Shown here: piece by piece, positions 44,634 through 46,946 of the stretch | Layout: each line of letters opens with the position of its first letter | Position numbering within the stretch: position 1 is the first letter of the stretch | Made by a program: the position numbers and the translations under genes | Source of the DNA: an uncultured Rhodobacterales bacterium | GTDB lineage: Bacteria; Pseudomonadota; Alphaproteobacteria; Rhodobacterales; Rhodobacteraceae | Assembly: GCA_903845215.1 (NCBI GenBank) | Contig: CAIMWI010000075.1 | Coordinates: forward strand, 62,001 to 126,000 | Length of the DNA stretch: 64,000 nucleotides | Reading direction: 5' to 3' | Notes under the pieces: generated by a model | What the model saw: the letters and a program-made list of their open reading frames with translations, nothing else | Database searches by the model: none | What the model was told of the DNA's origin: nothing

Positions 44634-44661
44634 TCGGGCCGTATTCACGAAAGGAAAGACG

Positions 44662-45654
44662 ATGTTTCAAGCGCTTGTGCTAGAGAAGAACGCCGAAGGT
44701 CAGGCCGTGGCTGCGATCCAAGATTTGGACGACAGCGCCCTGCCTGCGGGCGATGTGACGGTGGCGGTGGAATATTCCACCCTCAATTACAAAGACGGCC
44801 TTTGCCTGTCGCCCAGTGGCAGCGGGCTGGTGCGCGCCTATCCGCATGTGGCGGGGATCGACTTTGCCGGCACGGTCGAAGCGTCTGACGATGCGCGCTA
44901 CAAGCCCGGCGACAAGGTGGTTCTAACCGGCTGGCGCGTGGGCGAGGTGCATTGGGGCGGCTATGCCACCAAGGCGCGGGTCAAGGCTGATTGGCTGGTG
45001 CCCTTGGCCGCAGGGCTGACCGCGCGACAGGCGATGGCGGTGGGTACGGCAGGGCTGACCTCGATGTTGGCGGTGCTGGCGCTGGAAGATCACGGGCTGA
45101 CGCCTGCGGCCGGCGAGGTGCTGGTGACGGGCGCTGCGGGGGGTGTGGGGTCGGTTGCGGTGGCGCTGCTGGCCAAGCTTGGCTATCAGGTCGCGGCGGT
45201 GACGGGGCGGCCTGAAACGGAAAGCTATTTGCGCGATTTGGGGGCGGCCCGCATCATCGCCCGCGCTGATCTGGCCGAAACCGTCAAACGCCCGTTAGAG
45301 GCCGAGCTTTGGGCCGGCTGCATCGATGCCGTCGGCGGGCCGATGCTGGCGCGGGTGCTGGGGCAAATGAAATACGGGGCTTCGGTGGCGGCGGTTGGGC
45401 TTGCCGGCGGATCGGGGCTGCCGGCGTCGGTCATTCCGTTCCTCCTGCGCGGGGTGAATTTGTTGGGGATCGATTCCGTCATGCGGCCCTTTGCGGACCG
45501 TCAAAGAGCTTGGGCGCGGATCGCAACTGATCTGGCGATGGACAAGCTTGAAGCGATGATCGAACCCGCCACATTGGCCGATCTGCCCACACTTGGGGCG
45601 GCGATTTTGAAGGGCGAGGTCAAGGGGCGTGTGGTGGTGGACTTGCGGGCCTGA
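44662..45654 (+). CDS. acuI: MDR-family NADPH oxidoreductase, AcuI-like acrylyl-CoA reductase
   Basis: STLNYKDGLCLS, VAGIDFAGTVEAS, VTGAAGGVGSVAVALLAKLGYQVAAVTGR. Confidence 0.85.
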   Translation: MFQALVLEKNAEGQAVAAIQDLDDSALPAGDVTVAVEYSTLNYKDGLCLSPSGSGLVRAYPHVAGIDFAGTVEASDDARYKPGDKVVLTGWRVGEVHWGGYATKARVKADWLVPLAAGLTARQAMAVGTAGLTSMLAVLALEDHGLTPAAGEVLVTGAAGGVGSVAVALLAKLGYQVAAVTGRPETESYLRDLGAARIIARADLAETVKRPLEAELWAGCIDAVGGPMLARVLGQMKYGASVAAVGLAGGSGLPASVIPFLLRGVNLLGIDSVMRPFADRQRAWARIATDLAMDKLEAMIEPATLADLPTLGAAILKGEVKGRVVVDLRA

Positions 45655-45668
45655 CCGGTTCGCCCCAC

Positions 45669-45773
45669 GATTTTTCTGCGAAAAATCAAATAATCGCGCA
45701 CCGATTTTTCTGCGAAAAATCGGTGCGCGATTATTCGCAGAAGAATCGGGTGCTAATTCTTCGCAGAAGAATT
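45669..45773. repeat. Cluster of four tandem palindromes with related cores
   Basis: GATTTTT-CTGCG-AAAAATC (45669-45687); 21-bp perfect arms around CTGCG (45689-45735); GATTATT-CGCAG-AAGAATC (45729-45747); AATTCTT-CGCAG-AAGAATT (45755-45773). Confidence 0.9.
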
Positions 45774-45779
45774 GTGGCG

Positions 45780-46946
45780 TCAGTCCTTCCAGTCGCCCTC
45801 AAAGTCCATGGGAATCATCAGGTTATGGGCCCCAAACTTGGCAATGTCGCGCTCTCCGCATAGGGCCATCGTGGTGTCGATTTCCTTGCGGATCACCTCT
45901 AGCGCGGCACTCACCCCGGCCTGACCCAGAGCGCCAAGGCCATAGATATAACTGCGCCCGATCATTGTGGCCTTGGCCCCCATAGCCAAAGCTTTCAGCA
46001 CATCCTGCCCCGAGCGGATGCCACCATCCATCCACACCTCTACTTGATCACCCACGGCGCGGGCGATGCTGGGCAAGCGGCGGATCGACGACAAAGCCCC
46101 GTCCAACTGCCGCCCGCCGTGGTTCGAGACGATCATTGCATCCGCCCCAAAATCAGCCGCGCGGCGGGCGTCGTCTTCGTCGAGCACGCCCTTGAGGATC
46201 AACTTGCCGCCCCACATATCGCGGATCCGCGCGATCTTGCCCCAATCCAGCTGCGGGTCAAACTGTTCAGCCGTCCATGACCCCAGCGAGGACAAGTCTT
46301 TGACGCCTTTGGCATGGCCCACGATATTGCCAAAACTGTGCCGCTTGGTGCGCGCCATGCCCACCGCCCACCGCCATTTGGTAGCAATGTCGATGATGTT
46401 GGCCAAGGTCGGCTTGGGCGGGGCCGACAGGCCGTTTTTCAAATCTTTGTGGCGCTGGCCCATGATCTGCAAATCCAGCGTCAAGACCAGCGCTGAACAC
46501 CCCGCCTTGCGGGCGCGATCTAGGGCAGAGGCCACAAAATCCCAGTCTTTCATCACATAAAGCTGGAACCAAAACGGGGCCGAGGTGTGGGCTGCCACAT
46601 CCTCGATCGAACAGATCGACATGGTTGAGAGTGTAAAGGGAACACCGAACGCCTCAGCCGCGCGCGCGGCTTTGATCTCGCCATCAGCGGATTGCATGCC
46701 GGTGAACCCCACCGGCGCCAAGGCCAAAGGCATGGTCACAGGCTGGCCCAGCATTGTGCCGGCTATGGTGCGGTTTGACATATCAACAGCCACCTTTTGA
46801 CGCAGGCGCAACTTGCCAAAATCACTCACATTGTCGCGGAAGGTCTGTTCCGTGTATGAACCGCTTTCGCAATAGTCAAAGAACATGCGTGGCACGCGGC
46901 GTTTGTGCAGGCGCTTCAGATCCTCGATGGCGGTGATCACGGGCAT
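45780..46946 (-). CDS. lldD: FMN-dependent alpha-hydroxy-acid (L-lactate type) dehydrogenase
   Basis: LSTMSICSIEDVA, VSNHGGRQLDGA, DGGIRSGQDVLKALAMGAKATMIGRSYIYGLGALG. Confidence 0.92.
   Translation of the reverse strand: MPVITAIEDLKRLHKRRVPRMFFDYCESGSYTEQTFRDNVSDFGKLRLRQKVAVDMSNRTIAGTMLGQPVTMPLALAPVGFTGMQSADGEIKAARAAEAFGVPFTLSTMSICSIEDVAAHTSAPFWFQLYVMKDWDFVASALDRARKAGCSALVLTLDLQIMGQRHKDLKNGLSAPPKPTLANIIDIATKWRWAVGMARTKRHSFGNIVGHAKGVKDLSSLGSWTAEQFDPQLDWGKIARIRDMWGGKLILKGVLDEDDARRAADFGADAMIVSNHGGRQLDGALSSIRRLPSIARAVGDQVEVWMDGGIRSGQDVLKALAMGAKATMIGRSYIYGLGALGQAGVSAALEVIRKEIDTTMALCGERDIAKFGAHNLMIPMDFEGDWKD

Follow-up and report, generated by a model that had tools for sequence, protein, structure and literature searches.

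REP-like repeats are usually explained as debris mobilised by REP-associated tyrosine transposases (RAYTs), and among α-proteobacteria the Caulobacter intergenic repeats (CIR) are intergenic inverted repeats located at CcrM sites. The CGTC-tagged REPs of α-proteobacteria (Di Nocera et al. 2013, PMC3733652), which include dRS3 and RPE-4/-6, are defined by a CGTC tag, a CCA-like tail and a loop of 4-5 nt; head-to-tail dimers are negligible among them and grouped elements are rare (PMC3733652). We analyzed a window of 64 kb, the whole stretch of DNA under study, and searched for relatives of its acuI/lldD repeat by pattern and by sequence stretches. The window genome is designated G000, and the other G-numbered genomes are those compared with it. 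We infer that the repeat represents a REP-like, tag-less and RAYT-unlinked family of 3'-end hairpins with a putative role in mRNA 3'-end protection, termination or translation.

The acuI/lldD array and its genome-wide family

Positions 45655-45779 make up the whole acuI/lldD intergenic region of 125 bp, with the acuI stop at 45654 and the lldD frame end at 45780. The region contains four palindromes, as the original prediction of mirrored cores between acuI (+) and lldD (-) had it: units 1 and 2 possess the loop TGC and units 3 and 4 the loop GCA, forming a ++-- array (Table 1). The array is not a chance arrangement, since GATTYTTCTGCGAARAATC with up to 3 mismatches has 6 matches in the 64-kb window, every one of them in the array, against 0.03 expected, and RNA folding gives a z of about -9 for either strand. 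The acuI-like gene scores just below the cut-off of NF051456 (AcuI). The perfect long hairpin predicted around a CTGCG core at unit 2 is real, with 22-nt arms, but its loop proper has 3 nt (TGC/GCA) and is closed by a C-G pair. Its predicted overlap with unit 3 amounts to 7 nt of the long arm; both the long arm and the overlap, however, are private to the window genome, the arm being absent from G209, G211, G199, G204 and G078.

Table 1. Coordinates of the features at the acuI/lldD site, in positions of the window
Feature	Position	Strand	Description
acuI-like acrylyl-CoA reductase gene	44659..45654	+	Putative start; stop 14 bp before unit 1; TIGR02823 above cut-off
Left outer tag CCAC	45665..45668	+	Abuts unit 1; compare family profile
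Unit 1	45669..45687	+	GATTTTTC-TGC-GAAAAATC; same at the orthologous site of G209, G211, G199 and G078; loop GGC in G204
Extended perfect palindrome around unit 2	45689..45735	.	22-nt arms, 3-nt loop; -32.9 kcal/mol; private to the window genome
Unit 2	45703..45721	+	GATTTTTC-TGC-GAAAAATC, the same 19-mer as unit 1; stem same in five relatives; loop GGC in G199 and G204
Unit 3	45729..45747	-	+ strand GATTATTC-GCA-GAAGAATC, one arm mismatch; mismatch-free GATTCTTC in G209 and G211
Unit 4	45755..45773	-	+ strand AATTCTTC-GCA-GAAGAATT, perfect; stem same in G209, G199, G204 and G078; one arm base different in G211
Right outer tag GTGG	45774..45777	-	Abuts unit 4; CCAC on the - strand; compare family profile
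lldD-like FMN-dependent L-lactate dehydrogenase gene	45780..46940	-	Putative start; end 6 bp from unit 4; NF008398 above cut-off, PF01070

A genome-wide palindrome search, proposed together with the original prediction, revealed that the array is not unique and belongs to a genome-wide, chromosomal family. The 2.97-Mb assembly of the window genome contains 82 occurrences of TTCTGCGAA, of which 72 are perfect or near-perfect palindromes with the 19-bp unit GATTTTTC-TGC-GAAAAATC and its arm variants. The repeat copies form 42 clusters, a count that takes in a few units beyond the 72. With up to 3 mismatches allowed, the 19-mer gives 126 matches on both strands (63 on each, as palindromes count twice), whereas the reversed control gives 0.

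The repeat is patchily distributed across Rhodobacteraceae. In a survey of 199 genomes of the family, about one per genus with two from the window genus, the 13-bp core is present in at least 6 copies in 7 genomes and is near zero in most. It is abundant in the window genome and its genus-mate, followed by G070 (28 copies), G092 (27), G167 (11), G182 (9) and G149 (6). Within the genus, 8 of 16 genomes contain 40-80 copies, one contains 10 and the rest 0-3. The repeat is thus dispensable, as most of the family and several genus-mates have almost no copies. In a scan of GTDB genomes, the matches listed were mostly from Rhodobacteraceae. Viral contigs gave just 9 pattern matches, a search of plasmids gave no match, and the Rfam search yielded no family above the gathering score. 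Literature matching of the core sequences returned only a single, unrelated paper on C. elegans, and the family looks previously undescribed.

In Poribacteria MAGs (L087, L088, L091, L113, L124, L127, L155), the same 19-mer, GATTTTTCTGCGAAAAATC, lies within another repeat with conserved flanks TCAGTAC...TTTCAGTTATCAG, which may reflect convergence or a distant relation. Rhodobacteraceae-type arrays are also found in CP059262.1 (L074, L093, L123, L157), a 4.26-Mb chromosome titled Exiguobacterium profundum SSD5; the name of this record is probably wrong.

Structure, conservation and change of the units

The unit is a 19-bp palindrome with an 8-bp arm and a 3-nt loop, TGC or GCA. The inner TTC/GAA of the arm is invariant, whereas the outer arm positions covary; the third pair, for instance, is TA in 280, AT in 111, GC in 33 and CG in 2 of the 426 unique perfect units. 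Against these 426 perfect units stand 23 with one mismatch, and the latter include 5 G-U versus 7 A-C mismatches. There is thus no G-U preference, and so action at the RNA level is not specifically favoured over action at the DNA level. Among 32 distinct units hand-chosen from the 426-unit list and from orthologs, we counted 58 two-sided changes versus 16.8 after shuffling (covariation score 0.616 versus 0.172). As the arm positions covary, the hairpin is what is kept; covariation alone, however, is no proof of selection, because template switching itself yields compensatory changes. Outside the arm, the 72-copy profile has C at -10 in 68/72 copies and A at -11 in 46/72, with a weak CC ahead.

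Two-unit clusters are inverted in every case (19/19, 11/11 and 17/17 in three genomes, which have many of these sites in common). Among arrays of at least three units, 28 of 32 follow the order ++-, +-- or ++--, every TGC unit standing ahead of every GCA unit, and the spacing is about 26-28 bp, leaving about 7-8 bp between units. In G092, from another genus, ordered arrays of three or four units make up most of the ten loci inspected, and in them the stems GGATTTTC, GCGTTTTC, GATCTTTC and AAGTCTTC recur in fixed places. The ordered four-hairpin ++-- array is probably the ancestral form, from which doublets and singletons would be derived.

Two rules were considered and rejected. That each gene owns TGC-loop hairpins in the sense direction is true of arrays (14/14 gene ends, counted over three genomes), whereas doublets and single units occur in both directions. 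A preference for identical stems in doublets, seen in G000 (15/19, p ~0.0006), is not general, as in G078 it is seen in only 4/16 inverted neighbours separated by over 27 bp.

Most repeat copies are inherited, since 31 of the 33 G199 clusters retrieved match a G000 cluster. Identity to G000 in G199 and G078, respectively, is 93.1% and 88.4% for the stems, 59% and 60% for the spacers, and 85% and 78.5% for the flanking genes. The acuI/lldD site has four units in G209 and G211, three in G199, G204 and G078 (unit 3 is missing in these), two in G207 and none in G203; across these relatives the stems agree and the spacers do not. The difference between stems and spacers or flanks would point to selection on the hairpin as the explanation of stem conservation, an argument from aligned sequences, because arm homogenisation alone would slow substitution by perhaps half.

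Template switching is described as producing both homogenised arms and inverted spacers (PMC8604942, PMC8794818). In unit 2, the long arm results from two changes, a short upstream insertion and a C-to-A substitution in unit 3, on its left arm. Each of them matches the arm opposite, the trace expected of a template switch, and the 21-22-bp arm looks like a mutation of this kind. Several orthologous units have kept the stem and possess TGC in one species versus GCA in the other. Among 72 aligned units, roughly ten look loop-flipped versus about six with single loop substitutions, although some of these cases may be mispaired units; loop inversion is therefore likelier than stepwise change. Of the recombination or phase-variable hairpin suggested originally, a faint part stands: the flips between orthologs fit loop inversion over evolutionary time. 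The flips seen are per loop and between species only, and phase-variable inversion of the whole array was accordingly set aside as improbable. On contig C23 of the window genome (L032:1949-2068), a +--- cluster contains a 32-bp unit in three tandem copies; G209 carries a simple +- pair at this site, which makes this a recent expansion.

Gene ends, RAYTs and rival explanations

The median distance from a cluster to the nearest gene 3' end is 6 bp in G000, 6 bp in G199 and 9 bp in G078, with gene ends taken from a purpose-written codon-usage gene caller whose stops are more reliable than its approximate starts. In G000, 22 clusters are in convergent, 17 in tandem and 2 in divergent intergenic regions, and 1 is inside a gene, so that 41/42 lie outside genes; for comparison, all gene pairs in the window include 8 convergent and 9 divergent ones. 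A few intragenic copies are present, among them one within an apparent long coding sequence on contig C88 of the window genome (L061:1968-1986), the palindrome of which is kept in G199 and G078. The resemblance to a REP/BIME-like element in the original prediction is borne out by the high copy number, the extragenic location, the doublets always being inverted and the position just after stop codons.

As RNA, a single unit is a weak hairpin (-4.1 kcal/mol), while strong folds (about -32 kcal/mol) are reached by a doublet or by the extended unit 2. Hairpins would form in the 3' UTR of the transcripts of both convergent genes, and a transcript entering from either gene would meet TGC-loop hairpins first, given the ++-- order. 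By analogy with E. coli REPs, the hairpins may serve as structural barriers that block 3'-5' exonucleases and mark or limit read-through. Among the points made in PMC12306157 is that translation in E. coli can be affected by REPs lying no more than 15 nt from a stop codon; the repeats here sit tight to stop codons, which would allow such an effect. Template switching between arms during replication would copy changes from arm to arm, sometimes flip the loop, and may have made the over-long unit 2 palindrome in the window genome. This full explanation, combining a REP-like hairpin family, an ordered array, 3'-UTR barriers and template switching, is the best available, and our confidence in it is moderate.

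A bidirectional intrinsic terminator of the ordinary kind, present in many repeats, would fit the location of the array between convergent stops, and on the - strand TTTGATTTTT follows the long unit 2 hairpin peculiar to the window genome. On the + strand, however, the hairpins are not followed by a U-tract; within the window, the terminator definition fits the - strand alone, and the relatives are devoid of the long hairpin. A hairpin with a U-tract was found at 13/43 element-bearing gene ends versus 9.5 +/- 2.8 after shuffling of spacers (24/200 shuffles reach 13), that is, with no excess of canonical terminators over spacer-only shuffles, and the canonical intrinsic terminator was rejected as a candidate on this ground. 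It also leaves the fixed loop polarity and the array order unexplained, and we regard it as improbable. Because the hairpin-plus-U-tract combination is not enriched over the control, we favour a structural element of the REP type at 3' ends rather than an intrinsic terminator, in line with the earlier expectation of more than an ordinary bidirectional terminator. Such an element could also act as DNA, its AT-rich palindromes serving as cruciforms or putative protein-binding sites (e.g. gyrase or IHF-type BIME) that absorb supercoiling between convergent genes. The convergent bias and AT-rich arms are consistent with this, as are pairing constrained with no G-U preference, regular spacing with fixed polarity, and the invariant inner TTC/GAA beside a covarying outer arm. 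We nevertheless regard it as unlikely, since the repeats lie just as close to gene 3' ends in tandem pairs, which do not experience particularly high supercoiling.

A further explanation is a selfish REP-type element, whose copies a RAYT or some other transposase would spread, their positions reflecting no more than where insertion is tolerated. The patchy spread, with many copies in about half of the genus, would agree with it, and RAYTs are present in the window genome and in 6/6 other carriers checked, versus 17/51 of the others searched. The two RAYTs of the window genome were found by NCBIfam NF047646; the Pfam Y1_Tnp model scored both below its cut-off. One, on contig C33 (L070:1318-1842), for which NF047646 is decisive, is flanked by canonical GTAG REPs GTAGGGTGGGT...ACCCACCC. 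TTCTGCGAA was not found in the 1.5-kb flanks of the RAYT loci examined in the window genome and relatives; in the carriers tested, RAYTs adjoin GTAG REPs of other sequence or no REPs, never the acuI/lldD-type repeat. The RAYT link envisaged in the original prediction was consequently not borne out. Comparison with empty sites at three loci revealed presence and absence, with no target-site signature and no clean insertion footprint. Since most copies are also inherited, with stems better conserved than coding sequence, we consider the selfish element quite unlikely. Two side observations concern these loci: the second RAYT (contig C20:86187-86666; L225:1688-2167) has no GTAG REP at its flanks and lies ~2.7 kb from paired repeats of the acuI/lldD type, and contig C5 of G078 (611375-611713; L411) has an inverted GTAG-REP pair GTAGGATGGGCAATCTGCCCATC, of the kind found at one G078 RAYT, where G000 has a +--- cluster.

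Returning to the REP-like 3'-end hairpin family, it can be speculated, though this is doubtful, that the ancestral element is a direction-symmetric device of four hairpins (loops TGC, TGC, GCA, GCA, with a separate conserved stem for every loop), and that a factor binding RNA or DNA reads its loop polarity where gene ends converge; it would then be a new class of bacterial 3'-end element and not a decayed transposon family. A family with no RAYT of its own, in which stems are conserved beyond the neighbouring genes, spacers are free, and order and polarity are fixed across genera, makes it testable whether REP-like repeats are kept for their effects on the ends of mRNAs, and to what extent hairpins are maintained by template switching at replication as opposed to selection. 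Close relatives differ visibly by homogenised stems, flipped loops and a suddenly extended arm.

Comparison with known repeat systems

The family agrees with the broad definition of REPs, which comprises palindromes of the 20-40 bp class with many extragenic copies (here 72 copies of a 19-bp unit), pairs in opposite orientation, and locations near 3' ends in convergent and unidirectional intergenic regions. It resembles the GTAG-tagged REP/BIME/REPIN elements with RAYTs in being composed of high-copy extragenic palindromes, with inverted pairs after stop codons and RAYTs in the genomes. In contrast to them, no GTAG tag is present in the 72-copy profile, and the RAYTs, where REP-flanked, stand beside GTAG REPs of other sequence.

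The Caulobacter CIR are likewise intergenic inverted repeats in α-proteobacteria, but they are CcrM-associated, whereas GANTC occurs in just 5/426 of the present units. Rho-independent bidirectional terminators also place hairpins between convergent genes; a GC-rich hairpin followed by a U-tract in both directions, however, is not what is found here, and the present family differs from them by the lack of U-tract excess, by its repeated sequence and by the fixed loop polarity.

The CGTC-tagged REPs of α-proteobacteria (PMC3733652) share with the present family a short palindrome with an 8-9-bp stem, A/T at the outer stem positions, inverted dimers, a location near gene 3' ends at unidirectional and convergent sites, and the lack of a dedicated transposase. 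Unlike them, the 72-copy profile contains neither the CGTC tag nor that CCA-like tail, the loop is 3 nt instead of 4-5 nt, the outer neighbour is C (CCAC-like), and four-unit ++-- arrays bring units of the same direction side by side. The ordered four-hairpin form thus matches none of the tagged REP classes of PMC3733652, and the family is real, conserved and REP-like.
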